Source: a virus. From it: DNA of 26,044 bases. A program made the position numbers and the translations under genes. Positions within the stretch are counted from its first letter, which is position 1, and every line of letters begins with the position of its first letter. The notes under the pieces were generated by a model. The model was not told the origin of the DNA. It did no database searches and saw only the letters and a program-made list of their open reading frames with translations. Below are positions 1-24,321 of this stretch, one piece after another. The DNA lies in IMG/VR virus record IMGVR_UViG_3300023109_003022, positions 1 through 26,044 of that record. The stretch is one strand, 5' to 3'.

Positions 1-3000
1 GCTTCAGAAACTTCAGGTACTTCAGGATCAACAGGTTCAAATGGAACAAGTGGTGATGCAGGAACAAGCGGAGCTTCAGCTACAAGTGGTAGTTCAGGTT
101 CATCAGGTACTGAAGGTACAAGCGGTGTAAATGGAACATCAGGAGATAGTACTTCAAGTGGAACTTCAGGTTCAACAGGTACTGTAGGTTCATCAGGTAA
201 TAATGGTACTTCAGGTGCTTCAGCTACAAGTGGTAGTTCAGGTAGTACTGGTTCAAATGGTACTAGTGGAAATGCAGGTCAAAGTGCTCTAAGTAGAACT
301 TCAGGTTCAAGTGGTTCATCAGGTACTTTAGGTACAAGTGGTGTAGCTGGAACTTCAGGTGCTAGTGTAACGAGTGGTTCAGCTGGAACTTCAGGATCTT
401 CAGGTTCAACAGGAACTGAAGGTACAAGTGGTGAAGCAGGTACTTCAGGTGCTAGTGAAACCTCAGGTACAAGTGGTTCAACAGGTACTGTAGGTTCAAG
501 CGGTGAAGCAGGTACTTCAGGAGTAAGTGCTTTAAGTGGAACAAGCGGATCAACAGGTTCAAATGGTACCTCAGGTAACAATGGTCAATCAGGATTAAGC
601 AGAACATCAGGTTCAGCAGGTTCATCAGGTACTTTAGGTACGAGTGGTGTAGCTGGAACAAGTGGAAATAGTGCAACTTCAGGTACCACAGGTTCATCAG
701 GTACTTCAGGAGCTGATGGTGTTGAAGGAACTTCAGGTGAATCAGGTACTTCAGGTACTACAGGTTCAGCTGGTACTTCAGGAGAAGATGGTGTTGCTGG
801 TACTTCAGGAGAAGCAGGTACTTCAGGTACTACAGGTTCAGCAGGTACAAGCGGTGAAGATGGTACTTCAGGTGCTTCATCTACAAGTGGTACAAGTGGA
901 TCAACAGGTTCAAACGGTTCATCAGGAAATGCAGGTCAAAGTGCATTAAGTAGAACATCAGGATCTAGTGGTTCAAGCGGTACATTAGGTACTTCAGGTG
1001 TAGCAGGAACTAGTGGAGCTTCTAGAACAAGTGGTACTAGTGGTTCAACAGGTACATCAGGTTCAAGTGGTGTAAATGGAACAAGTGGTGAAAGTGCTCT
1101 AAGTAGAACATCTGGATCTAGCGGTTCATCAGGTACAACTGGTTCATCTGGTAATAATGGTGCTTCAGGTGCTTCAAGAACTTCAGGTTCAGCAGGTTCA
1201 TCAGGTTCAAATGGTACTTCAGGTGTTAATGGAACATCAGGTGCTTCAAGAACAAGTGGAACTTCAGGTTCAACAGGTACTGTAGGTTCATCAGGAGATG
1301 CAGGAACTTCAGGATTAAGTAAAACAAGTGGTACAAGTGGATCAACAGGTTCAAACGGTACTTCAGGAAATAATGGACAAAGTGCATTAAGTAGAACATC
1401 AGGTTCAAGCGGTTCATCAGGTACCTTAGGTACAAGTGGTGTTAATGGAACATCAGGTGCTTCAAGAACAAGTGGAACAAGTGGTTCAAGTGGTACAAAC
1501 GGTACTTCAGGTAATAGTACAACATCAGGTGCTTCAAGTTTAAGTAGAACTTCAGGTTCAAGTGGTTCATCAGGTACTACAGGTTCATCTGGTAATAATG
1601 GTGCTTCAGGTGCTTCAAGAACTTCAGGTTCAGCAGGTTCATCAGGTTCAAACGGTACTTCAGGTAATAATGGTACTTCAGGTGCTAGTAGATTATCAGG
1701 AACATCAGGTTCATCAGGTTCAAATGGTACTTCAGGTAATAACGGAGGATCAGGATTAAGCAGAACAAGTGGTACAAGTGGATCAACTGGTTCAACAGGT
1801 TCATCAGGTAATAATGGTCAATCAGGATTATCTAAAACAAGTGGTTCAGCAGGTTCATCAGGTACTTTAGGTACAAGTGGTGTAGCTGGAACTTCAGGTG
1901 CTAGTAGAACATCAGGTAACTCAGGAACTTCAGGTTCATCAGGTACTTCGGGTACTACAGGTGCTAGTAGAACAAATGGTGCTTCATCACTTAGTAAAAC
2001 TTCAGGTTCAAGTGGTTCATCAGGTACTACAGGTTCATCTGGTAATAATGGTGCTTCAGGTGCTTCAAGAACAAGTGGAACATCAGGTTCATCAGGTTCA
2101 AATGGTACTTCAGGTAACAATGGTACTTCAGGTGCTAGTAGATTATCAGGAACTTCAGGTTCAAGTGGTTCAAATGGTACATCAGGTAATAATGGAGGAT
2201 CAGGCGCTTCAAGAACAAGTGGAACAGCAGGTTCTTCAGGTTCAACAGGTTCAAGCGGTAACAATGGTCAGTCAGGATTATCTAGAACTTCAGGTTCAGC
2301 AGGTAGCTCGGGTACTTTAGGTACATCAGGTGTAGCTGGAACTTCAGGATTAAGTAGAAATTCAGGAACAAGTGGATCAACGGGTACAAATGGTACTTCA
2401 GGTAATACTGGAACTAATGGATTAAGTAGAGCTTCAGGTACATCAGGTACCACAGGTTCGAATGGTACCTCAGGTAATAATGGTACTTCAGGTGCTTCAA
2501 GAACATCAGGTAATTCATCAACATCAGGTTCAAGTGGTACAAGTGGTACAAGTGGTGCTAGTACAACAAATGGTGCTTCAAGTTTAAGTAGAACTTCAGG
2601 TTCAAGTGGTACAAGTGGTACATCTGGTAATACAGGTACTAATGGATTAAGTAGAGCTTCAGGTACAAGCGGATCAACAGGTTCAAATGGTACCAGTGGT
2701 AATAATGGTCAGTCAGGAATATCAAGAACTTCAGGTTCAGCAGGTTCATCAGGTACTTTAGGTACTAGTGGTGTTAATGGAACATCAGGTGCTTCACGTA
2801 CAAGTGGTACATCAGGTTCACGTGGTACATCAGGTACAACAGGTGTTAACGGTACTTCAGGTGCTAGTAGATTATCAGGAACAAGTGGATCTGCAGGTAC
2901 AAATGGTACAAGTGGTGTAACGGGAACTTCAGGATTAAGTAGAGCTTCAGGTACAAGTGGTACAAGTGGTTCAGTCGGTTCATCAGGTATTGGTGGTGCT

Positions 3001-3723
3001 GGAGGAGTATCAGGAGGTTCAGGTTCATCAGGTACTTCAGGTACAAATGGTACTAGTGGTATATCAGGTAATGTAGGTTCAGCCGGTACTTACGTATCAA
3101 TAATCGCAGGAACCGGAATGACTGGTGGGGGTGTATTAAATACCAACAGAACATTAAGTATTGACTGGACAAACACTAACAATGATGGTGAAATAGTTAG
3201 TTATAATGCGGGTGATCCAAATAGATTAACAGTAGCTAAGTGGCTAAACCCAGATTTCATTTGGGATGGTAATATGATGCCACTTCAAAATATGACTTGG
3301 AATATTGGTTCTCCTGACAAATGTTGGATGGAAATTTGGGCAGTCGCGTTTAATACTTGTGGTATTTTCGAACAGAACTTAGCAGGATCTAATAGAGAAG
3401 ATAACTTAGATCACATAACTGGTACAGTAATGGTTTGGAAAGACGGAGAAATGTTACCATGTTCAAGTGAAAAAGATCACATGAGAATGGGTGTAATGCA
3501 AAACGGTAAAGATATCCCGATCGTACAAGGTGCTGAACCCGTACTAGTGGTTGGAGTAGTAAAAGAAGGTGATTATCTTGTTACTTCAGAAAAAGAAGGA
3601 CATGCTAAAGCTATAAGTAGAGAAGAGATGATTAATGAAAAATTACATGATGTAGTATTTGCAAAAGCTCTAGAAGATGGAGAAGGAGATTCATACATTA
3701 TTAATGCTTACATTAATATTTAA
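1..3723 (+). CDS. Collagen-like Thr/Ser-rich fibre protein (5' end outside window)
   Basis: The reading frame is open from the first base to TAA at 3721-3723, giving 1,240 visible residues; the true start lies upstream. Residues 1-1030 are Gly-X-Y triplets dominated by GTS, GSS, GSN, GNN and GTL, with Pro, Cys, Met, His and all aromatics absent. The first aromatic residue (Tyr) is encoded at 3091. About every 24 residues a triplet's Gly is replaced, usually by Arg. Residues ~1031-1240 form a non-repetitive head that opens with IIAGTGMTGGG, a linker style common before phage fibre tips, and contains NIGSPDKCWMEIW and GDYLVTSEKEGHAKAI, resembling C-terminal domains of phage tail-fibre proteins. 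Acidic residues occur only before ~1300; from there to ~3150 the shaft is purely cationic. Role inferred: virion fibre or adhesin with a rod-like shaft. The ATG at 3118 is internal and should not be taken as a start. Whether the shaft is a collagen triple helix or a polyglycine-II-type bundle cannot be told from sequence. Confidence 0.9.
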   Translation, partial: ASETSGTSGSTGSNGTSGDAGTSGASATSGSSGSSGTEGTSGVNGTSGDSTSSGTSGSTGTVGSSGNNGTSGASATSGSSGSTGSNGTSGNAGQSALSRTSGSSGSSGTLGTSGVAGTSGASVTSGSAGTSGSSGSTGTEGTSGEAGTSGASETSGTSGSTGTVGSSGEAGTSGVSALSGTSGSTGSNGTSGNNGQSGLSRTSGSAGSSGTLGTSGVAGTSGNSATSGTTGSSGTSGADGVEGTSGESGTSGTTGSAGTSGEDGVAGTSGEAGTSGTTGSAGTSGEDGTSGASSTSGTSGSTGSNGSSGNAGQSALSRTSGSSGSSGTLGTSGVAGTSGASRTSGTSGSTGTSGSSGVNGTSGESALSRTSGSSGSSGTTGSSGNNGASGASRTSGSAGSSGSNGTSGVNGTSGASRTSGTSGSTGTVGSSGDAGTSGLSKTSGTSGSTGSNGTSGNNGQSALSRTSGSSGSSGTLGTSGVNGTSGASRTSGTSGSSGTNGTSGNSTTSGASSLSRTSGSSGSSGTTGSSGNNGASGASRTSGSAGSSGSNGTSGNNGTSGASRLSGTSGSSGSNGTSGNNGGSGLSRTSGTSGSTGSTGSSGNNGQSGLSKTSGSAGSSGTLGTSGVAGTSGASRTSGNSGTSGSSGTSGTTGASRTNGASSLSKTSGSSGSSGTTGSSGNNGASGASRTSGTSGSSGSNGTSGNNGTSGASRLSGTSGSSGSNGTSGNNGGSGASRTSGTAGSSGSTGSSGNNGQSGLSRTSGSAGSSGTLGTSGVAGTSGLSRNSGTSGSTGTNGTSGNTGTNGLSRASGTSGTTGSNGTSGNNGTSGASRTSGNSSTSGSSGTSGTSGASTTNGASSLSRTSGSSGTSGTSGNTGTNGLSRASGTSGSTGSNGTSGNNGQSGISRTSGSAGSSGTLGTSGVNGTSGASRTSGTSGSRGTSGTTGVNGTSGASRLSGTSGSAGTNGTSGVTGTSGLSRASGTSGTSGSVGSSGIGGAGGVSGGSGSSGTSGTNGTSGISGNVGSAGTYVSIIAGTGMTGGGVLNTNRTLSIDWTNTNNDGEIVSYNAGDPNRLTVAKWLNPDFIWDGNMMPLQNMTWNIGSPDKCWMEIWAVAFNTCGIFEQNLAGSNREDNLDHITGTVMVWKDGEMLPCSSEKDHMRMGVMQNGKDIPIVQGAEPVLVVGVVKEGDYLVTSEKEGHAKAISREEMINEKLHDVVFAKALEDGEGDSYIINAYINI
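7..2964 (+). repeat. 72-nt (24-residue) tandem repeat array of the Thr/Ser shaft
   Basis: A triplet in which Gly is replaced (by R, K, A, S, T, E or V), normally reading xTS or xLS, recurs at a fixed register. Positions of the substituted codon include 7, 79, 151, 223, 295, 367; 457, 529, 601, 673; 880, 952, 1024; 1105, 1177, 1249, 1321, 1393, 1465; 1546, 1618, 1690, 1762, 1834, 1906; 1996, 2068, 2140, 2212, 2284, 2356, 2428, 2500; 2653, 2725, 2797, 2869, 2941. I count 31 intervals of exactly 72 nt. The exceptions differ mostly by 9 or 18 nt, so the triplet phase is always kept. Confidence 0.93.
277..3060 (+). repeat. GQS-anchored super-repeat, ~441 nt
   Basis: A GQS triplet followed by ALS/GLS/GIS, then RTS (KTS once), GSS/GSA, GSS, GTL, GTS begins at 277, 583, 934, 1375, 1816, 2266 and 2707. 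Intervals are 306, 351, 441, 441, 450 and 441 nt, all multiples of 9. 441 nt equals six 72-nt units plus one triplet, so this is a higher-order unit built on the 72-nt array. Confidence 0.85.
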
Positions 3724-3732
3724 TAAGTAAAT

Positions 3733-6420
3733 ATGGGTTTAGAAATAACAGGAAATAGAATCTACCCAACAGGTTCTAATGATATAGATTTAAGAACATT
3801 AGTGATGACAGGGTCAATGAACCCTGTCGTCTTAAATCTTTCTTCACATACTAATGATTCAAATTTCATTACATTTACATCTTCAGGTACCCAAATTTAT
3901 AATACTCAAAGGTCATCCGGAGCCCAAGGTCCTCAAGGTACTCAAGGATATACTGGTAATACAGGTAATAACGGAGGAGGAGGATCCCAAGGAGCTCAAG
4001 GTAATCAAGGACCTCAAGGTAATCAAGGGGTTAAAGGATATCAAGGTCCACAAGGTAGACAAGGTGTTATAGGAGATGTAGGACCTCAAGGATATAGAGG
4101 TTCTCAAGGAGGTAGAGGATCACAAGGTGGTCAAGGTAATAATGGATTTACAGGATATAGAGGTCCTCAAGGAGGAAGAGGTCCACAAGGAAGCGATGGT
4201 GTTCAAGGACTTGAAGGTAGTGCAACTGGAGCAACAGGACCTACGGGATTAACAGGTGTTCAAGGTTCACAAGGTAGCCAAGGTGGTCAAGGACCTAGAG
4301 GTAATCAAGGTGGTCAAGGACCTCAAGGATTAGGCGGAAGAACTGGATTTGGAGGTCCTCAAGGTAGCCAAGGAAACCAAAGTGGAGTAAATGGTCCTAC
4401 AGGTTATACTGGTCCTCAAGGAGGAAGAGGTAATCAAGGAGGAACAGGTCCTGGTGGTTTAACCGGATATACAGGATATAATGGACCAAGAGGTCCACAA
4501 GGAGGAGCAGGACCTAATGGTCCCCAAGGATATCAAGGACCTCAAGGTAACCAAGGTAACCAAGGTGGTCAGGGGTTAGGAGGTAGAACAGGAAACACAG
4601 GATATAATGGACCAAGAGGTCCACAAGGAGGAGCAGGACCTGAAGGACCTACAGGTTATCAAGGACCCCAAGGTAATCAAGGTAACCAAGGAGGACAAGG
4701 ATTAGGGGGTAGAACAGGAAATACAGGGTATAATGGTCCTAGAGGTCCACAAGGAGGAGCAGGACCTAATGGTCCCCAAGGATATCAAGGTGCTCAAGGA
4801 TATCGAGGTAATCAAGGAGGACAAGGAGTAACAGGTAGTGGTGGATATCAAGGTCCTCAAGGAGGACAAGGTAGTAGAGGTTCTCAAAGTTCTACTACAG
4901 GACCTACAGGATATCAAGGATCACAAGGTGTTAGAGGTACTCAAGGTGGTAGCGGTAATCAAGGATCACAAGGTCCAACAGGATTTAATGCTCAAACTGG
5001 ACCTAGAGGATCACAAGGAACAGGACCTGGACCTACAGGATATCAAGGACCACAAGGTAGTAGAGGTACTCAAGGTGGTCAAGGTAGTAGAGGACCACAA
5101 GGATATACAGGAAGAACAGCAGCAACAGGATTTAGAGGACCACAAGGAACAGGACCAGGACCTACAGGATATCAAGGACCACAAGGTGGTAGAGGTACTC
5201 AAGGTAGTCAAGGTTCACAAGGTCCTCAAGGATATACAGCTCCTACAGCAGATGTAGGACCTAGAGGACCCCAAGGAACAGGACCAGGACCCCGAGGATA
5301 CCAAGGTCCACAAGGTGGTCAAGGAGGTAATGGAAATCCTGGTTCTCAGGGACCTCAAGGATATACAGGAAGAACAGCTGCTACTGGTCCCCAAGGTGCT
5401 CAAAGTAGTACAACTGGACCTCAAGGATATCAAGGTCCTCAAGGATATCAAGGAAATCAAGGATATGTTGGTGCCCAAGGGCATCAAGGCCCACAAGGTG
5501 GTCAAGGAGGTGGAGGAGCTACAGGTCGTACAGGATCTAGTGCTAATACAGGATATCAAGGTCCTCAAGGATATCAAGGAGGTCAAGGTAATCCAGGTGG
5601 TCAAGGTTCTCAAGGAGGAGCAAACCCAGGTTATACAGGTCCTCCAGGTAGACAAGGATCATCTGCAACTACTGGTCATGTAGGACCACAAGGTGCTCAG
5701 GGACCACAAGGACCACAAAGTACATATTCTCAACCAGGTTATCAAGGACCCCAAGGTACTAGAGGTAGTCAGGGAACCGCAGCTAATACAGGATATTCAG
5801 GATACACAGGTAGAACAGGTCCAGCAGGAGAACCAGGCTCACAAGGTTCTCAAGGTGGTCAAGGTATTCAAGGACCTAATGGATCTTCTTCTTCATCACC
5901 CGGACTTTCAGGTAATAATTTTTCTGGTAGACCTAATGCTAGTAATTCTGATTTTTATTGGGAACAAGAACCCCAAACCTATATGCCATCAAACGCATAT
6001 ACTTTAGTACCATATACTTACGATACTATAACAGGTAATGGTGCTGGAACTTCTCGAGGTGGTACTAATAATAATGGATTTATATTCCCCACAGGAATTT
6101 ATTATATAGAATTAAGTATGGTTATATCCCCTGAAACACGTAGTGGATTAACTGGTGGATCAAGTACAGGAAGTTCTAATGAATATCTCCAACTAGGATT
6201 ATATGAGGGGGACCCATCTGTAGCAATATCTCTTTTTGAAACTAATCAAATAATGGGTAATAACGTAAATATGAATTTAGTTCCTTCGGGGTGTACTTTA
6301 TGTGGTATATTCAATATTTCATCTCAAACAACATATTATATATATGCTTATCCTTTTAACTATGGTGCTGTAGTATATGATTTAGGATTTTCATGTTTAA
6401 CAATAAATAAATTAGGATAA
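3733..6420 (+). CDS. Gln-rich collagen-like fibre, paralogue A (895 aa)
   Basis: Start ATG at 3733 lies 9 nt after the previous stop, and its MGLEITGN opening is shared with the two following genes, which fixes the start. Residues 1-~60 are a short domain probably used for attachment or trimer nucleation. Residues ~62-720 are Gly-X-Y repeats rich in [12 protein letters not shown] and GRT, with Gln or Thr in the Y position and Pro mostly in X. Residues ~720-895 form a Gly/Thr/Tyr-rich globular head with strand patterns such as [12 protein letters not shown] and [10 protein letters not shown], consistent with a C1q/TNF-like jelly roll as found at the ends of collagen-like proteins. Tandem 126-nt and 129-nt units occur inside the shaft. 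Inferred role: trimeric fibre with a receptor-binding tip. The head family is inferred from strand patterns only. Confidence 0.92.
4478..4858 (+). repeat. 126-nt tandem repeat in fibre A, ~3 copies
   Basis: Units encode [12 protein letters not shown] and then ten further triplets (14 in all). The equivalent ATGG of the GYN-G junction falls at 4481, 4607 and 4733, exactly 126 nt apart. The third copy diverges after its first half. Confidence 0.9.
5017..5400 (+). repeat. 129-nt tandem repeat in fibre A, 3 copies
   Basis: Units start with GTGPGP at 5017, 5146 and 5275, spaced 129 nt (43 residues). The unit has one residue more than 14 triplets because GTGPGP breaks the Gly-X-Y phase; each unit also has an in-phase substituted triplet (AAT or ADV). 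Confidence 0.88.
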
Positions 6421-6428
6421 TATTTATA
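6420..6428 (+). promoter_or_regulatory. ATATTTAT(A) motif before fibre B
   Basis: One of eight ATATTTAT elements close upstream of start codons in this window. It ends 4 nt before the ATG at 6433 and starts at the last base of the previous stop codon. Could be a promoter or a translation-related leader element; function unproven. Confidence 0.3.
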
Positions 6429-6432
6429 ATAA

Positions 6433-9069
6433 ATGGGTCTAAAGATAATAAATAACCAAATCCTCCCCACAGGAACAGATAGTGAAATTCACATTGAAAA
6501 TGTAATTTTCGATGGGAATGTTCCTATTGTGAATGTGTTATCTGCTAACCCATCAACAGGTAATTATATTGGTGTAGATAGCAGTGGGATACTATATAGA
6601 CGTGCAAAAACACCTGGATACACAGGGGGTAGAGGATCCCAAGGATCTCAAGGACATAATGGACACACAGGTCATACAGGACCACAAGGAGGGAATGGTA
6701 ATCAAGGTGGACAAGGTGGTAGAGGAAGTCAAGGTGGACAAGGTACACAATCCGGAAAAGGATCACAAGGTGCTCAAGGTTCTCAAGGAAGAACCGGTAA
6801 TTTAGGTTTAGGAGGATCAGGAGGTCCTCAAGGTGGTCAAGGTGGTCAAGGTAATAATGGAAGAACAGGATTTACAGGTATAATAGGTCCTACAGGAGCA
6901 CGAGGTAATCAAGGATTATCTGGTTTTTATGGTCCTCAAGGATATACAGGTAGAACCGGTGTAGGAGGTCCAGGTGGTGCTCAAGGATCTAATGGTATAG
7001 TTGGACCTCAAGGTTCACAAGGATATCAAGGTCCTCAAGGTAATACAGGATACACAGGCCGAACAGGTACCCAAGGAAATCAAGGTCCCCAAGGATATAC
7101 AGGATATACAGGTCGTACAGGATATGTAGGACCTCAAGGATATAGAGGCCCTCAAGGTCCTCAAGGATATACAAATGCTACTGGTTATACCGGGGCACAA
7201 GGTGGTCAAGGAGGTCAAGGAGGAACAGGTTCTCAAGGTTCTCAAGGATTAAAAGGAGCACAAGGTTATCAAGGTTACCAAGGTCCTCAAGGATTTACAA
7301 ATGCTACTGGTTACACAGGGGCACAAGGAAGCCAAGGAGGTCAAGGAGGAACAGGTGCTCAAGGTCCCCAAGGATTAAAAGGAGCACAAGGTTATCAAGG
7401 TTACCAAGGTCCTCAAGGATATACAAATGCTACTGGTTATACCGGGGCACAAGGTGGTCAAGGAGGTCAAGGGGGTCGTGGTAGTCAAGGTCCAAATGGT
7501 ATACTAGGTCATACAGGATACAGAGGTCCCCAAGGAGGAACAGGACCTGGTGGACCTACAGGATTTGTAGGTAGAGCTGGTGGTCAAGGTGCTCAAGGAC
7601 CTAATGGTAGAACAGGTAACACAGGTAGACTAGGTCATGTAGGATATATAGGACGTCAAGGTAGTCAAGGACCTAAAGGAGAGGCAGGTTACACAGGTAG
7701 AGCTGGTGGTCAAGGTGCTCAAGGTGCTGATGGTAGAACAGGCTATATAGGTAGGTTAGGACACACAGGATATAGAGGTCCTCAAGGTACTCAAGGAGGA
7801 CAAGGACCTACAGGATACCAAGGTATAGCTGGTGGTCAAGGTGCTCAAGGTGCTGATGGTAGAACAGGATATGTAGGTAGATTAGGTCCTAATGGATATA
7901 GAGGTCCTCAAGGTGAAAAAGGAGGACAAGGACCTACAGGATACCAAGGTAGAGCTGGTGGTCAGGGTGCTCAAGGTCTTACTGGACTTGGAGGATATAC
8001 AGGTAGACCAGGTCCTAATGGGTATAGAGGTCCTCAAGGTAATCAAGGTCCTCAAGGATATACAGGATATACAGGTATAGCTGGTGGTCAAGGTGCTCAA
8101 GGTGGTAGAGGAACCCAAGGGGGTCAAGGTAGTCAAGGTACTCAAGGTGGTCAAGGTGGAGGCGGATTAACTGGACGAACAGGTGCTCAAGGTAATCAAG
8201 GTGCAAATAGAGCTGGATCTCAAGGTCCTCAAGGTGGTCAAGGTATTCAAGGACTTATAGGACCTTTAGGATATGGAGGTAGAACAGGATATTTAGGTCC
8301 TCAAGGTCAACAAGGTTATGAAGGTTTTCAAGGTTTAAATAGATCGGGAACACAAGGTCCCCAAGGATATAATGGAAGAACAGGAATTCAAGGTGGTACT
8401 GGGGGTAATGGTCCTCAAGGTAGACAAGGATATACTGGATTAACAGGACATACAGGATATGCTAGAGGAGGTCAAGGACCCCAAGGACCTCAAGGTAACC
8501 AAGGTAGAATTGGAAGTTCACCTACTGGTCCTAATGGAGGTAGTGGTTCTACTGGTTTCCAAGGTAAACCTGGAGGACCAGGTACTCAAGGACCAACAGG
8601 ATCAGGTAGTAATACACAACCTGAATGGGGTATAGTATATGGGCCTGGAGCTATAATATGGAATGACCCAAACCTCCCAGACCTTAGTTTACCAAATAAC
8701 TCTTCTTTAGCTGGGGTTTTTGGTACGGGTAATACTTCAATGTCAATCTTAGGTGGAGATACTTTAAGTATTAACGCAAATCACTCAGGTTATTATTATT
8801 TACAAGTAGGATTTACTTTCTTGGATGGTTTTAGTAGTGGAAAGATTTATGGGTATGTATATGATGACTTGCTAGGACAGATACGTACATCTGCGGGTGG
8901 TTGGGTGTATGGAGGAAATTCACATACGGAAACATTTACAACTAGTTGTGTATTATATGTAGATGATGCCGGAGCTCAATTACAATTTAAAGCTGCGTTA
9001 TTGAATAATCCTTTCTCAACAGCTGAGCAATTTGTAGGTCTAACGTGTAATCTAGTAAAGATACAATAA
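6433..9069 (+). CDS. Gln-rich collagen-like fibre, paralogue B (878 aa)
   Basis: The ATG at 6433 gives MGLKIINNQILPTG, clearly related to the openings of paralogues A and C. Residues 1-~60 are the shared N-terminal domain, ~61-725 a Gly-X-Y shaft with [12 protein letters not shown] and GYT, and ~728-878 a globular head with strand signatures GYYYLQVGFTFLDG and QFVGLTCNLVKIQ, consistent with a C1q/TNF-like beta sandwich. The shaft contains two 126-nt repeat arrays. The triplet NAT replaces a Gly triplet three times without changing phase. No Shine-Dalgarno is seen; TATTTATA sits 4 nt before the start. Inferred role: a second, differently tipped virion fibre or adhesin. It could be co-expressed with A and C or used alternatively; the sequence does not decide. 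Confidence 0.92.
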   Translation: MGLKIINNQILPTGTDSEIHIENVIFDGNVPIVNVLSANPSTGNYIGVDSSGILYRRAKTPGYTGGRGSQGSQGHNGHTGHTGPQGGNGNQGGQGGRGSQGGQGTQSGKGSQGAQGSQGRTGNLGLGGSGGPQGGQGGQGNNGRTGFTGIIGPTGARGNQGLSGFYGPQGYTGRTGVGGPGGAQGSNGIVGPQGSQGYQGPQGNTGYTGRTGTQGNQGPQGYTGYTGRTGYVGPQGYRGPQGPQGYTNATGYTGAQGGQGGQGGTGSQGSQGLKGAQGYQGYQGPQGFTNATGYTGAQGSQGGQGGTGAQGPQGLKGAQGYQGYQGPQGYTNATGYTGAQGGQGGQGGRGSQGPNGILGHTGYRGPQGGTGPGGPTGFVGRAGGQGAQGPNGRTGNTGRLGHVGYIGRQGSQGPKGEAGYTGRAGGQGAQGADGRTGYIGRLGHTGYRGPQGTQGGQGPTGYQGIAGGQGAQGADGRTGYVGRLGPNGYRGPQGEKGGQGPTGYQGRAGGQGAQGLTGLGGYTGRPGPNGYRGPQGNQGPQGYTGYTGIAGGQGAQGGRGTQGGQGSQGTQGGQGGGGLTGRTGAQGNQGANRAGSQGPQGGQGIQGLIGPLGYGGRTGYLGPQGQQGYEGFQGLNRSGTQGPQGYNGRTGIQGGTGGNGPQGRQGYTGLTGHTGYARGGQGPQGPQGNQGRIGSSPTGPNGGSGSTGFQGKPGGPGTQGPTGSGSNTQPEWGIVYGPGAIIWNDPNLPDLSLPNNSSLAGVFGTGNTSMSILGGDTLSINANHSGYYYLQVGFTFLDGFSSGKIYGYVYDDLLGQIRTSAGGWVYGGNSHTETFTTSCVLYVDDAGAQLQFKAALLNNPFSTAEQFVGLTCNLVKIQ
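7171..7450 (+). repeat. 126-nt tandem repeat in fibre B, anchored on TNATGYT
   Basis: The ACAAATGCTACTGG anchor occurs at 7171, 7297 and 7423, spacing exactly 126 nt. Copies differ by a few synonymous and X-position changes. Confidence 0.92.
7597..8110 (+). repeat. 126-nt tandem repeat in fibre B, anchored on GGQGAQG
   Basis: The codons following GGQGAQ fall at 7597, 7723, 7849, 7975 and 8101, all 126 nt apart. Internal sequence of the 14 triplets diverges considerably (GRTGYIGRLG versus GRGTQGGQG), yet the period is kept. Confidence 0.92.
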
Positions 9070-9079
9070 ATATAAAATA

Positions 9080-12000
9080 ATGGGTTTAGAAATAACAGGA
9101 AATAAAATATTAACAACATCACCATCAACACAAGCAACAATTGACAATGCTGTATTGTCAGGTTCTTATGTCGATATAGATACTATTACAACCCATAGTT
9201 CTATTGAAACTTTTTTAACTATTGATCCTTCAACAGGAGCTCTTAGAAAAACAAATAGTGTTACAGGACATTCAGGTCATTCGGGTCCTCAAGGAGGTCA
9301 AGGAGGTCAAGGAGGACAAGGTAATACAGGATATACAGGTAGAACAGGATATACAGGTAGAACAGGAAATGGAGGAGACACAGGTAATACTGGTTTTATA
9401 GGATCTACCCCTTCTCCAGGATCTCAAGGAGTTCAAGGTTATCAAGGAGTTCAAGGATATGGAGGTTATACAGGTCCTACTGGAGGTGGTGGTTCTCAAG
9501 GATTTCAAGGTCCTCAAGGATTTCAAGGTATAAGGAGTAACGTAGGATTTTTATCGTATAATATATATTCAACCCATTTTGGAAATGGGGGGACTAGTGA
9601 TTATGTAAAAAATGGATTCTCCAGTTACCCTAATAATGCTACCCAATTTGATATTTTATTAAACCCAAACCAAACAGCAACATCAATAGCAGGAAGTGGT
9701 CAAATTAGTGTTAGCACAGGTATTGATTTTACAACATATACCCAATTAGCAAATGTAGGTGTACCTGTACCTAATTCAGGAGCATATTATGCTTTTGCAG
9801 TATATGGAACTTTTGTTCCCACTACTACAGGTACTTATACTTTTAGTTGTGAAGGAGATGATGCTGTTGATTTATTTATTAATAACACATTAATTGCTTC
9901 TCATTATGGAGGACATGGTATTGCTCCTATAGGTACACATACAGGTACTATTTCATTAACCGCAGGTGTAGCTTACAACTTTAAAGCTAGAATGCAAGAA
10001 TATAGTGGGGGTGATGGTTTACGAGTATATTGGAAAAAACCAGGATCATCTACATGGCAAATAGATACAAATGAATTATTTGATGACGTAGGACTTCAAA
10101 ATGTAAATGTAGGAGGTCAAGGAGGTCAAGGAGGTCAAGGAAATCAAGGTCGTGGTGGATTCCAAGGATACACAGGACCTCAAGGATATCAAGGAGGTAA
10201 TAATGGTTACCGAGGACCACAAGGTGGTAACGGTAGTCAAGGATCACAAGGTTACCAAGGTATTAGAGGCCCAGAACCTAGAGGTTCACAAGGTTCTCAA
10301 GGTATTCAGGGTTATCAAGGTGGTACCCAAGGAGGTCAAGGAGGACAAGGTGGTAGAGGTTCTCAAGGTCCCCAAGGTTTCCAAGGAACATCTCCTACTG
10401 GAGCTGGAGGTAGAACAGGATATACAGGTAGAACTGGGCATCAAGGTGCAAATAGAGGTCCTCAAGGAGGACAAGGTGGTAGAGGTTCTCAAGGTCCTCA
10501 AGGTTTCCAAGGAGTATCACCTGGAGGTGGAAGTGGTAACACAGGACATACAGGTAGAACTGGGCATCAAGGTGCAAATAGAGGTCCTCAAGGAGGACAA
10601 GGTGGTAGAGGTTCTCAAGGTCCTCAAGGTTTCCAAGGAACATCTCCTACTGGAGCTGGAGGTAGAACAGGACATGGTGGTCCTCAAGGATATCAAGGTG
10701 GACCTCAAGGACCACAAGGAGGAACAGGACCTGGTGGACATACTGGTCCTCAAGGACCTCAAGGTTACCAAGGTAACCAACCCACAGGCTTCCAAGGTTA
10801 TCAAGGTCCTCAAGGATATCAAGGAGGAGCACAAGGTCCTCAAGGTTATCAAGGACCAGCAACTGGTCAAGGACCACAGGGACCTCAAGGTTACCAAGGT
10901 AATCAACCAACAGGCTCTCAAGGTTATCAAGGTCCTCAAGGATATCAAGGAGGGGCACAAGGTCCTCAAGGATACACAGGTCCCGGAACTGGTACTGGTA
11001 GTCAAGGATCACAAGGTTACCAAGGCAATCAACCAACCGGCTCTCAAGGTTATCAAGGTCCCCAAGGATATCAAGGTGGACCTCAAGGACCTCAAGGATC
11101 TGTAGGTCCTGCAACTGGTACTGGTAGTCAAGGATCACAAGGTTATCAAGGTAACCAACCTACCGGATTTCAAGGATATAGAGGACCTCAAGGTACTCAA
11201 AATGGAAGTCAAGGACCCCAAGGACATGCAGGTCCAGATACAAGTAGAGGACCACAAGGTAACCAAGGTAATCAAGGTAACCAACCCACTGGTAGAACAG
11301 GATATACTGGAAGAATAGGAGTAGGAGGTACCCCTAGTGATACACCAGGATATACAGGAAGTCAAGGTTATCAAGGACCTCAAGGTCCTACAGGTAACCC
11401 AGGTCCTAATCCTTCTGGAAATTCAGGTAATAGAGGATACCAATCTGGATCACAAGGACCACAAGGTCCTCAAGGTAATCAAGGTGGTCAAGGAGGACGA
11501 GGTGGTCAAGGTGTTCAAGGATATGATGGTGCAAATCCAAGAGGATCCCAAGGTCCCCAAGGATATAATGGTAGATCAGGTTACTCTAATGGAAGTCAAG
11601 GTCCTCAAGGTAATCAAGGAAATAGAGGACCTCAAGGCTATCAAGGTACAAATCCAACAGGATCTCAAGGTTCTCAAGGAACTCAAGGTACTTCTACTCC
11701 TGGAAATCAAGGATATAGAGGACCACAAGGTAACCAAGGTAATCAAGGATCAAATGGACCAACAGGTGTACAAGGTGCCAACGCACTTCCTGAAGGACAG
11801 GCTGTTATTGTTGATTATGCAATGAATGCAAGTTTAGGTCAAACAGAAAATGCTGCTACTCAATTATCATTTGTTAATACTGGATGGAATACCAGTGCAA
11901 ATGTTAGTATATCCTCAGGAACAATAGATCAATTTACAATTTTAACTACTGGTAATTATTATATTGAGTGTGGGTTTAATTTTGAATTTATTTCATCATC

Positions 12001-12241
12001 TTCAACTCAATCTAATGGTGCTTTCTTTAAATTAGTTCCTAATACTAATGTAAATAATTATTTATCATTTGGTAGAAGTAGAATCCAAAATAGTAATAGC
12101 CACTTAGGTTCAGTCAAGTTATACTTTGCCGGTAATATTGTTGGAGGAACTATTTTAGAAGTATATGGATTTAAAATAAATAGCAGCCAAACAATAGGAG
12201 TTTATTCAGGTAATATATTTATATCAGAAATTACCCCATAA
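9080..12241 (+). CDS. Gln-rich collagen-like fibre with embedded PA14-like domain, paralogue C (1053 aa)
   Basis: The ATG at 9080 gives [11 protein letters not shown], as in paralogue A. After the ~60-residue N-terminal domain there is a short Gly-X-Y shaft (~61-150), then a non-collagen domain at ~151-338 with TYTFSCEGDDAVDLFINN, a Gly/Thr strand, and GDGLRVYWKKPGSSTW. This pattern matches the PA14 family (beta-barrel, often carbohydrate-binding through an Asp-Asp pair and calcium). A long shaft follows (~340-900) with two arrays of 126-nt repeats. The C-terminal ~150 residues form a beta-rich head with TGNYYIECGFNFEF, C1q/TNF-like in appearance. Inferred role: a fibre with two binding modules, one mid-shaft and one at the tip. 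An AT-only inverted repeat follows the stop codon. Confidence 0.92.
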   Translation: MGLEITGNKILTTSPSTQATIDNAVLSGSYVDIDTITTHSSIETFLTIDPSTGALRKTNSVTGHSGHSGPQGGQGGQGGQGNTGYTGRTGYTGRTGNGGDTGNTGFIGSTPSPGSQGVQGYQGVQGYGGYTGPTGGGGSQGFQGPQGFQGIRSNVGFLSYNIYSTHFGNGGTSDYVKNGFSSYPNNATQFDILLNPNQTATSIAGSGQISVSTGIDFTTYTQLANVGVPVPNSGAYYAFAVYGTFVPTTTGTYTFSCEGDDAVDLFINNTLIASHYGGHGIAPIGTHTGTISLTAGVAYNFKARMQEYSGGDGLRVYWKKPGSSTWQIDTNELFDDVGLQNVNVGGQGGQGGQGNQGRGGFQGYTGPQGYQGGNNGYRGPQGGNGSQGSQGYQGIRGPEPRGSQGSQGIQGYQGGTQGGQGGQGGRGSQGPQGFQGTSPTGAGGRTGYTGRTGHQGANRGPQGGQGGRGSQGPQGFQGVSPGGGSGNTGHTGRTGHQGANRGPQGGQGGRGSQGPQGFQGTSPTGAGGRTGHGGPQGYQGGPQGPQGGTGPGGHTGPQGPQGYQGNQPTGFQGYQGPQGYQGGAQGPQGYQGPATGQGPQGPQGYQGNQPTGSQGYQGPQGYQGGAQGPQGYTGPGTGTGSQGSQGYQGNQPTGSQGYQGPQGYQGGPQGPQGSVGPATGTGSQGSQGYQGNQPTGFQGYRGPQGTQNGSQGPQGHAGPDTSRGPQGNQGNQGNQPTGRTGYTGRIGVGGTPSDTPGYTGSQGYQGPQGPTGNPGPNPSGNSGNRGYQSGSQGPQGPQGNQGGQGGRGGQGVQGYDGANPRGSQGPQGYNGRSGYSNGSQGPQGNQGNRGPQGYQGTNPTGSQGSQGTQGTSTPGNQGYRGPQGNQGNQGSNGPTGVQGANALPEGQAVIVDYAMNASLGQTENAATQLSFVNTGWNTSANVSISSGTIDQFTILTTGNYYIECGFNFEFISSSSTQSNGAFFKLVPNTNVNNYLSFGRSRIQNSNSHLGSVKLYFAGNIVGGTILEVYGFKINSSQTIGVYSGNIFISEITP
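9530..10095 (+). other. PA14-like domain inside a collagen shaft
   Basis: Residues ~151-338 of fibre C lack Gly-X-Y and show PA14 hallmarks: YTFSCEGDDAVDLFINN followed by GTISLTAGVAYNFKARMQE and a VYWKKPGSS strand. The Asp-Asp of GDDA is where PA14 lectins commonly bind calcium and sugar. Gly-X-Y repeats resume directly afterwards. Confidence 0.8.
10351..10680 (+). repeat. 126-nt tandem repeat in fibre C (GGRGSQGPQGFQG units)
   Basis: The TGGTAGAGGTTCTCAAGG anchor occurs at 10351, 10477 and 10603, exactly 126 nt apart. Copies are nearly identical except for the TSPTGAGG versus VSPGGGSG segment. Confidence 0.92.
10763..11262 (+). repeat. 126-nt tandem repeat in fibre C (GYQGNQPTG units), 4 copies
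   Basis: The GYQGNQPTG anchor begins at 10763, 10889, 11015 and 11141, exactly 126 nt apart. Each unit has compensating interruptions (GNQPTG is long, GYQGGAQ and GQG are short), so the total remains 42 residues. Confidence 0.92.
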
Positions 12242-12294: not shown

Positions 12295-13539
12295 ATGAAA
12301 TTAAGTGTAGTTACACCTACCCATAAGGGTACTTATTTAAATGAATTATATGATTCATTAAAAGATCAAACATATACTAACTGGGAATGGTTATTATACC
12401 TAAACGGTGGTTTACGTAAAGATGATATCTCTCAAGAAATAGTTAATGATTCTCGTGTAGTAATCCATCATGATATTAAATGTCCTTTAAGTACAAATGT
12501 AGGTTATCTAAAAAATAAAGCATTCCATTTAGCTACTGGAGATATATTAGTTGAAGTAGATCATGATGATGTTATAACCCCTGATTGTTTAGAGGAAACC
12601 GCTAAAGGATTTAAAAATCCTGAAATTGGTTTTGTATATAGTGATAATGCTAAATTACAAGATGATTTTATACCTTATGGTTCTGAATATGGATGGACTT
12701 ATGGATCAGCTGAATGGAAAGGTAAACATTATATCTCAATGGATTCTTTTGAACCATCAGCTAATTGTGTTTCACTTATTTGGTTTGCTCCTGACCATGT
12801 TAGGGCCTGGAGATCATCAGTTTATAGAGAAGTAGGAGGTCATAACCCTGAATTATCAATTCTAGATGACCAGGAATTAATGATGAGAACCTATATGGTT
12901 ACTTTATTTAAATATATCCCTAAAACACTTTATTTTTATAGAATTTACGGAGAAAATACTTGGTTAGAACGTAACCAAGAAATTCAAGAAGGCACAGTTA
13001 ATATGATGTATGAATGGCAACAACGTTTAGCTGAACGTGATGCTGATTTAAAAGGCCTACGTAAAATTGACATAGGTGGTGGTTTATATCCACGTGAAGG
13101 ATATGAGTCAGTGGATATTACGAATGGAGATATAACCGCAGATTTAACGCAGAAATGGCCATTTGAAGATAATTCAATTGGAGTAATAAACGCATCTCAT
13201 GTCATAGAACACCTACCAGATAAACAATTTACTATGTCTGAGATGCATAGAGTACTAGCAGATGGTGCTTGGGCTTTTATAGAAGTCCCATCTACCGATG
13301 GTAGAGGTGCATTTCAAGATCCAACTCATGTAAGTTATTGGAATGAAAATTCATTTTGGTATTATACTAAAAAATTACATGCTGATTTCATATATAATGA
13401 TAAAGTCCACTTCCAATCATTTGTTTTAGATACTTACTTCCCCGATGAATTTATGTATGAAAATAATATTTCTGTTACTAGAGCTTATTTAAGTGCTATT
13501 AAAAGCGATAAACGTAGACCCGGATATAAAGAATTATAA
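12295..13539 (+). CDS. GT2 glycosyltransferase fused to SAM-dependent methyltransferase
   Basis: Residues 1-~240 form a GT-A family 2 glycosyltransferase: MKLSVVTPTHKG opening strand, DQTYTNWEWLL, and the metal/nucleotide-sugar motif VEVDHDD (residues 87-92). Residues ~255-400 are a class I methyltransferase: KIDIGGGLYPREGY (SAM glycine loop near 258-263), the acidic second strand SVDITNGD, WPFEDNSIGVI, and SHVIEHL (301-307), as in Methyltransf_11-type proteins in sugar gene clusters. The protein probably transfers a sugar and methylates it or a nearby group; acceptor unknown. It is the first gene of the cassette, 53 nt after fibre C, and its stop overlaps the next start by one base (TAATG). 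The domain assignments are clear; the substrate is not. Confidence 0.88.
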   Translation: MKLSVVTPTHKGTYLNELYDSLKDQTYTNWEWLLYLNGGLRKDDISQEIVNDSRVVIHHDIKCPLSTNVGYLKNKAFHLATGDILVEVDHDDVITPDCLEETAKGFKNPEIGFVYSDNAKLQDDFIPYGSEYGWTYGSAEWKGKHYISMDSFEPSANCVSLIWFAPDHVRAWRSSVYREVGGHNPELSILDDQELMMRTYMVTLFKYIPKTLYFYRIYGENTWLERNQEIQEGTVNMMYEWQQRLAERDADLKGLRKIDIGGGLYPREGYESVDITNGDITADLTQKWPFEDNSIGVINASHVIEHLPDKQFTMSEMHRVLADGAWAFIEVPSTDGRGAFQDPTHVSYWNENSFWYYTKKLHADFIYNDKVHFQSFVLDTYFPDEFMYENNISVTRAYLSAIKSDKRRPGYKEL

Positions 13540-14186
13540 TGACAGAACAATTTCAAAAATTTCATGAATTAACTCGCTCTGGTATTAATAACGGAGAAGA
13601 AATCACTATATTAGCCATAGATGATTTTTATAATGATCCTGATGGTATTAGAGAATTTACAATAAATAACTTTAATTTTGAACCATCCCAATGGCATAAA
13701 GGACAAAGAAGTCATGAAAAATTAATAGTTGAAGGTACAAAAGAAAAACTAGAAAAAGTATTACAACAAGAAATAACAAATTGGGATTATAATTACAATG
13801 GTGTTTTTCAATTTTGTAATGCTCAAGATTCATTAGTATATCATTGTGATACCCAACAATATGCGGCTGTAGTATTTTTAACTCCAGATGCCCCTCCTGA
13901 AGCAGGAACTAATTTTTATCGCTCTAAAATAACAAAAAAGACTCGATTTGAACCTTGGGAAAATGGGAGTGAAATTTATAATAATACTTTTCCTGATGGA
14001 AATTACTATGATAAAACTAAATTAGAATTAATTGATAAAGTAGGTAATGTTTATAACAGATTAGCATTATGGGATGCTCGTACTATACATGCAGCCAGTG
14101 AATATTTTGGGGATAATATATATAACTCTAGATATTTTCATATGTTCTTTTTTGATTGTGATAAACCCGAACCCCCAAGATATTAA
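13539..14186 (+). CDS. DUF6445-like 2-oxoglutarate/Fe(II) oxygenase
   Basis: This 215-aa protein carries the iron triad of the double-stranded beta-helix oxygenases: H102-C-D104 in SLVYHCDTQQYAAVVFLTP, distal H184 in WDARTIHAAS, and R198 in NSRYFHMFFF as the likely 2-oxoglutarate anchor. The segment APPEAGTNFYRS between them resembles DUF6445-type proteins, which are oxygenase-like and uncharacterised. It starts one base inside the preceding stop codon and precedes a second, different oxygenase, so the two are probably made together. The substrate is unknown; candidates are fibre residues or cassette sugars. Oxygenase fold confidence is good; family name is moderate. Confidence 0.78.
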   Translation: MTEQFQKFHELTRSGINNGEEITILAIDDFYNDPDGIREFTINNFNFEPSQWHKGQRSHEKLIVEGTKEKLEKVLQQEITNWDYNYNGVFQFCNAQDSLVYHCDTQQYAAVVFLTPDAPPEAGTNFYRSKITKKTRFEPWENGSEIYNNTFPDGNYYDKTKLELIDKVGNVYNRLALWDARTIHAASEYFGDNIYNSRYFHMFFFDCDKPEPPRY

Positions 14187-14189
14187 TAT

Positions 14190-14783
14190 ATGAGAACATT
14201 TTATAATTTTGATCCTAATTACGAAACTAACCCAACAGAATTTTATTGGTTTCAAGAAGCATTCACACCTGAAGAAATAGATAAAATTATTACTGATTGT
14301 AGTAAAGTAGAAACCCAACATGCTACAATTGCCGGTGGAGGAAATGAAGATGAAATAGCAGGTGTAAGAAAATCAACAGTTAGATGGGTCCCCCAAACAG
14401 ATGAATTTAGTTGGATATATTGGAGAATATCAGAACTAGCAAAAGAAGCAAATTCAATTTGGGGTTTTGATTTACAATCAATGCCTGAAGGTATTCAATT
14501 TACTGAATATTTTGATAATGGAGGACATTACGATTGGCATCAAGATATTGGTCCTGGAGAATTAAGTATTAGAAAAATATCAGTGACAATTCAATTATCA
14601 GATTCCGATGACTATGAAGGAGGTGATTTAGAAATATTAAGAGGTGCAACTGAAGAAAAAACAGTAAGAGGTAAAGGAGTAGCCGTACTTTTCCCATCAT
14701 ATATGCTTCATAGAGTTTCACCTATAACTAGGGGAACTAGAAGATCTTTAGTATTATGGTTAGGTGGTTCACATTTTAAATAA
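14190..14783 (+). CDS. Prolyl-4-hydroxylase-like 2-oxoglutarate/Fe(II) oxygenase
   Basis: This 197-aa protein has the P4Hc/PKHD pattern: N-terminal FQEAFTPEEIDKII, the segment RKSTVRWVP, iron ligands H117-Q-D119 in HYDWHQD, GGDLEIL, distal H174 in FPSYMLHRVSPIT, and R184/R185 in GTRRSLVLW for 2-oxoglutarate. The length is normal for single-domain phage and bacterial members. It sits 3 nt after the DUF6445-like gene. Proximity to collagen-like fibres makes hydroxylation of fibre residues an attractive idea, but fibre prolines lie almost all in the X position of Gly-X-Y and the first fibre shaft has none. Targets on other phage or host proteins, or on sugars, remain possible. Confidence 0.85.
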   Translation: MRTFYNFDPNYETNPTEFYWFQEAFTPEEIDKIITDCSKVETQHATIAGGGNEDEIAGVRKSTVRWVPQTDEFSWIYWRISELAKEANSIWGFDLQSMPEGIQFTEYFDNGGHYDWHQDIGPGELSIRKISVTIQLSDSDDYEGGDLEILRGATEEKTVRGKGVAVLFPSYMLHRVSPITRGTRRSLVLWLGGSHFK

Positions 14784-14789
14784 AAGTTT

Positions 14790-17700
14790 ATGTTTGATTA
14801 CGGAGATGTAGAAATTAAAGATCCATATTTTAAAGAATGTTTAGAAAGAGAATTTTTTAATGACTCTCAATATGAAAAATATGTTAGTGTTAAAGAAGGA
14901 GACGTAGTAGTAGATATAGGGGCAAGTATTGGTCCTTTTTTATATACTATTAAAGATAAAAATTTATCTAAAGTAATAGCAGTAGAACCTATGCCTTCTT
15001 ACCATAAGCTATTACTTAAAAACTCAGGATTACCTAACTTAATTCTTTATAAAAACGCTATTGGATCCAATGATAATGAAATTATAGATTTAGAATGGAG
15101 TAGTGAAAAAGAACAAGTTAAAACAATATCATTCCAAAGTATAGTTAATAATAACGATTTATCATACATTAATTTTCTCAAATTAGATTGTGAAGGAGGA
15201 GAATATGATATTTTTACTGAAGAAAATATTGATTATTTAAAAAATAATGTAGGTTATATTGTAGGTGAATTTCATCTTAATGATGAAAGAATGACCAATG
15301 AATTTAAAAAATTATATAAACTACTTAATAAACATAATTTTAATTTTCATATTGAATCAGTTGATGGATATGATAATACACAATGGTTTAAAGATGATTT
15401 AGAATATTCATCCAACCAAAAATCCCAAGTTATACTTTATATAGATAATAGAAAAATGAAAAAATTATTATGTATAGCACCTCATTTATCAACAGGAGGT
15501 TTACCCCAATATTTAACTAAAAAAGTAGAATTACTTAAAGATGAATATGAAATTCATTTAGTTGAATGGCAAGATGTTACTGGAGGAAGATTAGTAGTTA
15601 CTAAAAACAAAATTCTTGCTCTAGTTCCAGATGATAGGTTTTATACTCTAGGAGAAAATAAAATGGAATTAATGGAATTAATTGATAAAATTAAACCAGA
15701 TATTATCCATAGTGAGGAAATTCCTGAATTTTATATGCCTAATGACATAGCACAAAAATTATATGCTACTGATAGATCTTATAAAATTGTAGAAACATCT
15801 CATGATTCATCATTTGATGTAGAACAAAAACGTTTCTTCCCAGATAAATTTATGTTTGTATCTCAATGGCAAATAGATCAATATAAAGATATTGATATAC
15901 CTAAAGTATTAGTTGAGTATCCTATTGAGTATATTCCACGTCCTGATAGAACAGAGGCATTACAAAAATTAGGGCTGGATCCAAATAAAAAACATATTTT
16001 ACATATTGGGTTATTTACATCTAGAAAAAATCAATCTGAATTTTTTGAATATGCCAAAATGTTACCTGAATATGAATTCCATAGTGTAGGGAACCAAGCA
16101 GATAATTTTAAATGGTATTGGGAACCTTTAATGCAAGATAAACCCGATAATTTAACATGGTGGAATGAAAGAACGGATGTTGATAATTTCTATCAATCAA
16201 TGGATTTATTTTTATTTACATCTAGAGGTACAGCAAATGATAAAGAAACAATGCCCTTAGTTATTCGTGAGGCATTATCATATCAAATCCCTCAATTATT
16301 ATATAATTTAGAAGTATACCAGAATTATTTTGATAGTTATGATTCTATTAATTACCTAAATTTTGATAGTTTAGAGGAAAATAAAAAACTTATCCAACAA
16401 CATTTCCAAGAATCAGATTATATTGATCCTAGCAAAGAAGCATACGTTATATGCACATATCCAGTAACGGATGCTATTATTCAAACTACTAAAGATTGCA
16501 TTAACTCATTAAAACGAGATGGTAGAAAAATTATAATTTCATCACATGCTCCTGTTCCTAAGGAATTACAAGAAATGGTTGATTATGTTTTTTATGATGC
16601 TAATAATATCTTAACAAAACATACTTACTACTCTAGTTTTAATTTCTATACAGATTTATATGATACTAATTTAAATTTAAAAGGTGAAGATAATGATATA
16701 TACCATGGACCTGCTTGTTACACTAGTTTTAGAAACCCTGCTACATTTGCTAAAAATTTAAGTATTGAAAAGCTCCATTTTATTAATTATGATTATATTT
16801 TAAAAGATGAAGATTATATCAATTATATTTCTAAAATTCTAAATACTAAAGATACATTCTTTGGTGAATTTAAAGCCCAAGAAGGTAAATGTTATTATAC
16901 ATATTTCTTTAGCTCTAAACCAGAACCAATCTTAGAAAACACACCAGATATCCATTCAGCTAAAGAATACGATGATTTGATGTTTACTTGTGGATCTGAA
17001 TCTAATGGTATTGAAAATATGTATTACCATTTATTTAAAGATTACCCAAATAATTACATTGAACCTAAAGAAAAATTCGAATCAGATGCTGAAAAATATT
17101 TTGATTTTGAAGATTATTCAATGGTAGAGTACTACAGTATTCTCCCAACAAATGTACCTGGTAGATTTTGTCCTTGGATTACTATTTCAAATGCTAAAGA
17201 AAGTAAATTAATCCATTATACTGTAGAAAGAAATGGTGAAATAATCATTGATAGAAATTTAGAAGTTACAGGTAAATACTATTTTTGGGATATGGTTCCT
17301 TACTCATTAGATGATAACACAGTAGTAAAATTCCATATTACCGATTTAAACACAGGTGACTTTATTAAAGAACACGTATTTAATTTAAATAAAGATTATT
17401 TTTTAAATAAAATGCCTAATAATGGTACATTTAATTGGAAAGGTGGTATTAAAGAATATGCTCGAAAACCTAAAATTAAATTAATGCATTTAGTTACGGA
17501 ACCTGACACAAATGAAAAAGAAATTACTTCTATAGAAAGTGTTAAAGAATTTTGTGAGCTAACCGGTATTAAGTATGAACAACGTGTTAATGAAATTTAT
17601 AAAAATACCCCACCTAAAAATAATTGTAATAGACCAGATGATGTCCAAGATAAACCTGGATATTATAAATTAGCTCCTGGGCATTATGGTTGTTTTTTAG

Positions 17701-23771: not shown

Positions 23772-23810
23772 TTTTTTAAAAGTTAAATATTTATAATAAA
23801 ATAAAATAAA

Positions 23811-24299
23811 ATGGCGATATTAGATTCCAACGAAATTTTCTTCACAGCTTTCGAACCGAAAGTACAAAATAGGTTTATCATGTATGTTGATGGTATTCCT
23901 GCATATACTATTAAAGGTGTTTCATCTGTAGGATTTGCACAGGAAGAAATTAAATTAAACCACATCAACACTTATAGAAAAATCAAAGGTAAATTATCAT
24001 GGAATGATGTTACAATGACTCTATTTGATCCGATTACTCCATCAGGAGCTCAAGCAGTAATGGAATGGGTAAGATTACACCATGAATCAGTTACTGGTAG
24101 AGATGGTTATTCTGATATGTATAAAAAAGATGTAACAATCAACGTATTAGGACCTGTAGGTGATATTGTTTCGGAATGGATCTTAAAAGGTGCATTTATT
24201 AAATCAGGCGAATTCGGAGAATACAACTGGGATAATGAAGCTGCTGCTCAAAATATGACAGTAGTATTAGGAATGGATTATTGCGTATTGAACTTCTAA
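23811..24299 (+). CDS. Tail tube protein (T4 gp19-like)
   Basis: At 162 aa it matches the size of gp19-type tube proteins. Diagnostic segments are RFIMYVDGIPAYTIKGVSS, KLSWNDVTMTLFDPITPSG, and WILKGAFIKSGEFGEYNWDN near the C terminus, before VVLGMDYCVL. Six copies per ring would stack inside the sheath and form the DNA conduit. The gene follows the sheath by 39 nt, with TATTTATA at 23788-23795 and a run of AAAAT before the ATG, and is followed by a strong hairpin terminator, as expected for a highly expressed gene. Confidence 0.93.
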   Translation: MAILDSNEIFFTAFEPKVQNRFIMYVDGIPAYTIKGVSSVGFAQEEIKLNHINTYRKIKGKLSWNDVTMTLFDPITPSGAQAVMEWVRLHHESVTGRDGYSDMYKKDVTINVLGPVGDIVSEWILKGAFIKSGEFGEYNWDNEAAAQNMTVVLGMDYCVLNF

Positions 24300-24321
24300 T
24301 AAAGAAATTCAAGATATTTTA

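Follow-up and report, generated by a model that had tools for sequence, protein, structure and literature searches.

A strict 24-residue beat of glycine interruptions in a proline-free, collagen-like phage fibre shaft

The window, that is, the whole stretch of 26,044 nucleotides analysed, is a viral record of 26 kb that is not backed by any longer assembly. The presence of sheath, tube and baseplate genes identifies its source as a contractile-tailed phage. Its left end carries a collagen-like fibre gene, which is followed by three further collagen-like ORFs, a modification cassette and the tail genes:

1..3723, + strand: collagen-like fibre gene (Pfam PF01391), truncated at the 5' end by the window edge, with 1240 aa visible
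7..2949, + strand: periodically interrupted shaft of 24-residue modules, with 43 merged breaks and 31 intervals of 72 nt
682..879, + strand: sole long break-free stretch inside the shaft, between breaks at triplets 74 and 97
1996..2508, + strand: longest exact run of 24-residue modules, seven consecutive 8-triplet intervals
2950..3090, + strand: last 16 triplets, uninterrupted, linking the shaft to the C-terminal domain
3091..3720, + strand: non-repetitive C-terminal domain, with homologues at loci L092, L061 and L046
3733-6420, + strand: collagen-like ORF, Q/P-rich
6433-9069, + strand: collagen-like ORF, Q/P-rich
9080-12241, + strand: collagen-like ORF, Q/P-rich, with a PA14 domain between two collagen parts
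12295..20948, + strand: sugar/hydroxyl/methyl modification cassette adjoining the fibres
13539-14783: DUF6445 protein and PKHD-type 2OG-Fe(II) oxygenase, near the proline-bearing collagen ORFs
14790-18158: 1122-aa fusion of an FkbM methyltransferase, a GT4 and a GT25-like end (E=0.0012, below the cut-off)
22044..25157, + strand: tail sheath, tail tube and baseplate hub genes

Because the fibre ORF is open at the window edge, the start of the gene and the N-terminus of its product lie outside the window. In the visible protein, Pfam recognised collagen (PF01391) in 15 stretches (E=2.8e-96; 315.7 bits against a curated cut-off of 27.2) and no other family, and the product is probably a tail (or virion) fibre. 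Residues 1..1030 form a Gly-X-Y shaft, after which a non-repetitive domain of 210 residues follows. The shaft had been described in an earlier note, made from the sequence by itself, as free of proline, and it does contain 0 Pro, as well as 0 Cys, in 1030 residues. Its module consists of seven triplets of the G-[T/S]-S type and one triplet without Gly; the last 168 residues of the longest exact run (2005-2508) make up the first row of alignment A1. The final uninterrupted stretch is similar in the three homologues, where the last row has 14-18 triplets. The C-terminal domain matched no Pfam family, no PDB family and no known trimer, and its predicted model is poor. The three Q/P-rich ORFs (3733..12241) differ in type from the T/S shaft and have many out-of-register interruptions. 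Their N-termini are related (MGLEITGN, MGLKIINN and MGLEITGN), and they show DNA periods of 126 nt (42 aa).

When the Gly register of the shaft was read out, 50 of 329 triplets were found to lack Gly, which gives 43 breaks after merging of adjacent ones; seven of the 50 open a double break, mostly ALS or SLS followed by R/KTS. Thirty-one of the 42 successive intervals between breaks measure exactly 8 triplets (72 nt), the very count that the earlier note had reported, while random placement of the breaks in 100,000 trials gave a mean of 2.4 such intervals (sd 1.5, maximum 10). A peak in the break autocorrelation at a lag of 24 residues, proposed in the note as a check, is present, with values of 0.66 at 8 triplets, 0.49 at 16 and 0.32 at 24. 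The break-free stretch at 682..879 corresponds to a 23-triplet interval, or three units minus one triplet. The statement that Gly is usually lost to Arg was borne out in part: Arg is the replacing residue at 28 of the 43 breaks and Lys at 3, but Arg is the usual replacement in the distal two thirds of the shaft only, and A, T, V and E predominate among the first breaks (E, A, T, A, R, V, E, A).

A beat of this kind could have been left behind, without any function, by tandem duplication of 72-nt units, and Tandem Repeats Finder reported 72-, 144- and 441/450-nt arrays in the shaft, within which longer blocks are also repeated. In the window shaft, residues 8 triplets apart are identical at a rate of 0.665, compared with about 0.47 at other lags, and codon identity for the same residue is 0.605, compared with 0.568 expected from codon usage; eight other shafts that we examined behaved similarly. 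Since synonymous sites are near random between units while the pattern of Gly and non-Gly is intact, the spacing is upheld at the protein level, and saturation of the synonymous sites rules out duplication at the DNA level as the sole cause. Furthermore, dozens of sequence clusters have identical spacing with differing break residues. We therefore regard a functionless relic as extremely unlikely. Metagenomic repeat assemblies can be imperfect, though independent contigs agree.

Ordinary homology searches returned no relatives. None were found for the C-terminal domain among viral contigs and named phages; BLAST with the shaft protein gave no match, the query presumably having been masked by the low-complexity filter; and a DNA search with the shaft matched only the uninterrupted shaft of 735-kb phages. 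Sequence matches in the PDB to animal collagens reflected compositional Gly-X-Y likeness only, as did the match to 8zxl, whose GSQGAPGLQGAPGAP repeat is uninterrupted. Viral contigs were therefore searched by pattern, for Gly codons every 9 nt together with breaks. A pattern of two breaks 8 triplets apart recovered at least 119 stretches. In order that sampling should not preselect the spacing of 8, single-break patterns, which are neutral for intervals above 4 triplets, were also used. The first neutral sample, comprising all shaft types, contained 115, 135 and 74 intervals of 7, 8 and 9 triplets, with 27 at 6 and 35 at 10. In the second, of 81 T/S-rich viral shafts, 696 intervals equal 8, against 94.9 +/- 9.0 expected. 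When one shaft was taken from each 85%-identity cluster, the mode was 8 in 26 of 42 representatives and 15 or 16, about two units, in six more, and 35% of all intervals in these representatives were exactly 8. The substituted positions in relatives, which the earlier note had asked about, are thus not random. By comparison, the two-break pattern recovered 68 stretches, nearly all of them single matches, from bacterial and archaeal genomes (257 Gb); of the loci there with several matches each, the two that were read (L321 and L324) are T/Q/P-type collagens of another kind.

Among 23 records examined, the T4-type gp23 capsid protein was present in 15 and a tail sheath likewise in 15, both lower bounds because the loci are fragments. 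The gp23 proteins of carriers, which include a 299-kb phage, fall into groups at about 62% and 33% identity, and in the deepest group (L030, L163) the interval mode is 7-8 and looser. The beat is widespread, and its carriers include T4-like phages with major capsid proteins only about 33% identical. Flavobacterium phage immuto, whose tail sheath (55.6%) makes it the nearest cultured relative, lacks any collagen-like protein. Two phages provide natural controls for the beat: the T/S shaft of a 735-kb uncultured phage (LR756501.1, 95000-125000; L380) runs for about 800 triplets and is almost free of breaks, and the T/S shafts of Microcystis phage Mel-JY01 (PP395634.1; L379), up to 149 triplets long, have no regular breaks. 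That T/S-rich shafts exist which do not keep the beat means that it is not a by-product of T/S composition; by the same token, a T/S-rich phage shaft can do without joints, since periodic breaks are absent from many of them. Both states can occur in one chain. The shaft at L046 runs for 103 triplets with no break and then keeps a regular 8-beat up to its C-terminal domain, and at L114 periodic and long uninterrupted Gly-X-Y stretches similarly alternate. The uninterrupted stretches at these two loci have a short sub-period of their own (GTS GES GTS GTN type). In two collagen-like shafts with some proline (L195, L125), the breaks, which are Ala, lie mainly at 9 triplets. This hints that beats of 7-9 triplets also occur outside T/S shafts.

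We then compiled the sequence context of 3,594 breaks in 108 shafts. The break residue is Ala in 39%, Ser in 14%, Asn in 13%, Arg in 13%, Gln in 11% and Lys in 6%, and V, I, L, F, P and D practically never occur there; the dominant residue is A in 53 shafts, R in 14 and K in 5. Breaks lie in the context G-[L/A]-S-Z-T-S-G-T-S, where Z is the break. The Y residue before the break is Ser in 95%, the X residue before it is Leu in 29% against a background of 4%, and the Y residue three triplets before it is Ala in 50% compared with 12%; overall, Y positions are 64% Ser, 12% Ala and 10% Asn. The X positions after the break are almost all occupied by Thr or Ser and those before it are variable, so that the module has a direction. 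Gly occupies about 97% of the non-break Gly positions. The constant register noted in the window likewise extends to the viral shafts as a whole, with 3923 interruptions in register and 158 out of frame (96% in register). The homologues of the C-terminal domain, which were found only among loci from the Gly-break pattern search, are 74% (L092), 71% (L061) and 64% (L046) identical to that of the window protein by alignment and 70, 68 and 64% by tblastn. Next to this homologous domain all three keep the spacing, and their breaks carry R and E in L061, A and then R in L092, and N, S, A and E in L046. Together with the residue counts in the 108 shafts, these homologues rule out Arg as the conserved feature. 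The conserved trait is the regularly spaced, in-register interruption, to which Arg is one solution among several.

Where basic residues do occur, they are nearly confined to the breaks. In 84 periodic shafts, R and K account for 18.5% of break residues, 0.9% of X and 0.2% of Y, an enrichment of about 20-fold over X and 80-fold over Y, and in the window shaft 31 of 32 lie at breaks, with none at X and one at Y. R/K rises toward the C-terminus in 19 of the 27 cluster representatives that had enough basic breaks (sign test, p=0.05), significantly so in 6 and significantly in the opposite direction in 0, and acidic residues at X and Y tend to fall toward the C-terminus. In the window (7-2949), L061, L092, L094 and L105, the breaks near the visible N-terminal side are acidic or neutral, with D/E at X and Y, and those near the C-terminal end are R or K. 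These distributions favour the idea of positive charges at even spacing, put forward in the earlier note, which would then serve to bind an acidic surface. However, A, N, S or Q is the choice of most shafts, and L046, with a C-terminal domain 64% identical to that of the window, has no R/K at its breaks at all, so that charge can only be a secondary use. As a general explanation it appears very unlikely; it holds as a secondary, lineage-dependent truth. The note's broader expectation, that a strict period implies a purpose, stands insofar as the cause lies at the protein level, but evenly spaced positive charge is not the general purpose.

The cassette that adjoins the fibre genes suggests another role, in which the breaks would be modification sites and S-Z-T-S an exposed sequon that the adjacent glycosyltransferases and hydroxylase would decorate at regular distances. 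The cassette (12295..20948) encodes a GT2 with a methyltransferase, the DUF6445 protein, the 2OG-Fe(II) oxygenase, a fusion of FkbM, GT4 and a weak GT25, a further GT4, a further FkbM and a GT9. Homologues of the 1122-aa fusion, at about 51-83% identity, occur in many phages with T/S shafts, and GT25 includes the animal collagen galactosyltransferases; it is conceivable that 13539-14783 encodes a phage collagen hydroxylase. Ser and Thr are strongly fixed around the break, and GT25-like or GT9 genes accompany 30 of 128 T/S-rich shafts compared with 1 of 30 other collagen-like shafts (Fisher p=0.01). This association may, however, reflect shared phage lineage, the difference between periodic shafts (22 of 78 with the cassette) and other T/S shafts (8 of 50) is not significant (p=0.14), and the whole shaft is full of Ser and Thr regardless. 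We consider regular decoration at the breaks improbable.

Our preferred reading, to which we assign a probability of roughly 0.55, is a trimeric collagen-like tail-fibre shaft built of 24-residue modules, with the in-register interruptions as joints. It builds on the spacing, its maintenance at the protein level, the motif, the breadth of its distribution and the confinement of R/K to the breaks, all of which are directly supported. Seven Gly-X-Y triplets would form a short rod, about 6 nm long if triple-helical, and in the eighth triplet Gly would be replaced in register by A, S, N, Q, R or K within G-[L/A]-S-Z-T-S-G, a break of the G5G type. Each break would most likely be a point of local unwinding or a joint, by which the imino-free rod would be regularly segmented; its side chain would be free to vary between phages and, in this phage and several others, would carry the positive charge of the shaft, rising toward the C-terminal end. 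Peptidase_S74 is a trimerising chaperone of phage fibres, and this domain (PF13884) forms the C-termini of the five relatives with periodic shafts that were tested. The phage-encoded collagen-like protein EPclA has a trimeric true collagen domain (PMC3368898). From these two observations we infer that the shaft trimerises; the triple helix and the joint function are proposed in the same spirit. The alternation of periodic and uninterrupted stretches in one register in L046 and L114 is what one would expect of a single basic helix underlying both. Against this reading count the lack of proline in the shaft, which leaves the stability of a triple helix in doubt, the window protein's own C-terminal domain, which is neither S74 (by Pfam) nor a match to a known trimer, the many T/S-rich shafts with no periodic breaks, and the AlphaFold monomer described below. 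Among carriers, the periodic shaft is joined to various C-terminal domains.

The main rival to a trimeric rod would be another fold that has 24 residues per coil, either a beta-solenoid or a polyglycine-II bundle, in which the Gly-free triplet would close each coil. Twenty-four residues per coil is a usual size in parallel beta-helices, the shaft has no Pro and almost exclusively small residues at Y, and the AlphaFold model of a seven-module monomer, in which a weak strand marks each break, came closer to a 24-residue solenoid than to a rod. This model, however, has a pLDDT of 40 and stays below 50 throughout, and a fold search with it found no match in the PDB; as the models of both the shaft and the C-terminal domain are poor, fold searches with either say little. 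Furthermore, a solenoid requires neither strict triplet Gly nor an unbroken register over about 1000 residues, uninterrupted stretches of 50-100 triplets prolong the same chain, and S74 trimerisation domains stand behind such shafts in relatives. We consider a fold of either kind rather unlikely. The breaks are also unlikely to be register marks against slippage of the three chains, because the strict periodicity itself permits slips of 8 triplets; at lag 8, 35 breaks still coincide. The pitch of the collagen superhelix (7-10 triplets per turn) is numerically close to the 8-triplet beat and might conceivably account for it.

Tentatively, and with somewhat less confidence than in the segmented trimeric rod itself, we suggest that these shafts constitute a distinct class in T4-like phages, jumbo-sized ones included: imino-free, segmented Gly-X-Y fibres in which a polar or small residue takes the core (Gly) position once per module, thereby forming inner layers or joints at regular intervals, to which the positive charge is restricted. 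Substitution of Gly is the textbook lesion of collagen. Here, in many phages, selection favours Gly breaks at a strict period, and the effect of a Gly break on a triple helix becomes testable in a naturally repetitive and recombinantly accessible protein. With the beat as a simple rule, a widespread and apparently undescribed class of phage fibres can also be recognised by sequence, and the proline-free design may be of use in biomaterials. The open-access literature searched contained no account of regularly spaced Gly breaks in phage collagens.

Several known systems resemble the shaft in part. The polyglycine-II sandwiches of phage S16-type gp38 adhesins and of the snow-flea antifreeze protein are short multi-helix bundles that share with it Gly-X-X runs lacking proline; in the window shaft, in contrast, a single register is kept over about 1000 residues, and neither sequence nor fold searches gave a match. 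Tail fibres tipped with Peptidase_S74 are represented by the five tested relatives, whereas the window protein ends in another C-terminal domain. Collagens of the PF01391 family, such as EPclA of an E. coli prophage, have Gly at every third position, as does the window shaft over most of about 1000 residues, and phage and bacterial collagens of the EPclA type share its layout of N-domain, shaft and C-domain and its phage fibre context. The triplets of EPclA are, however, rich in P, E and K (PMC3368898, Table 4), unlike those of the window shaft. PF01391 collagens are characterised by uninterrupted Gly and by X and Y positions rich in Pro/Hyp; the window shaft departs from both, lacking Gly in one triplet of eight with a 24-residue period (50 of 329 triplets) and proline altogether. 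Non-fibrillar collagens, type IV and others, tolerate G1G, G4G and G5G breaks, which are thought to give local flexibility and are irregular and often out of register. The window shaft resembles these interrupted collagens in that its breaks are flanked by Gly triplets, usually seven between, in an otherwise collagenous chain; it is set apart from them by the order of its interruptions, which in the phage shafts are 96% in register with an interval of 8 triplets dominant.
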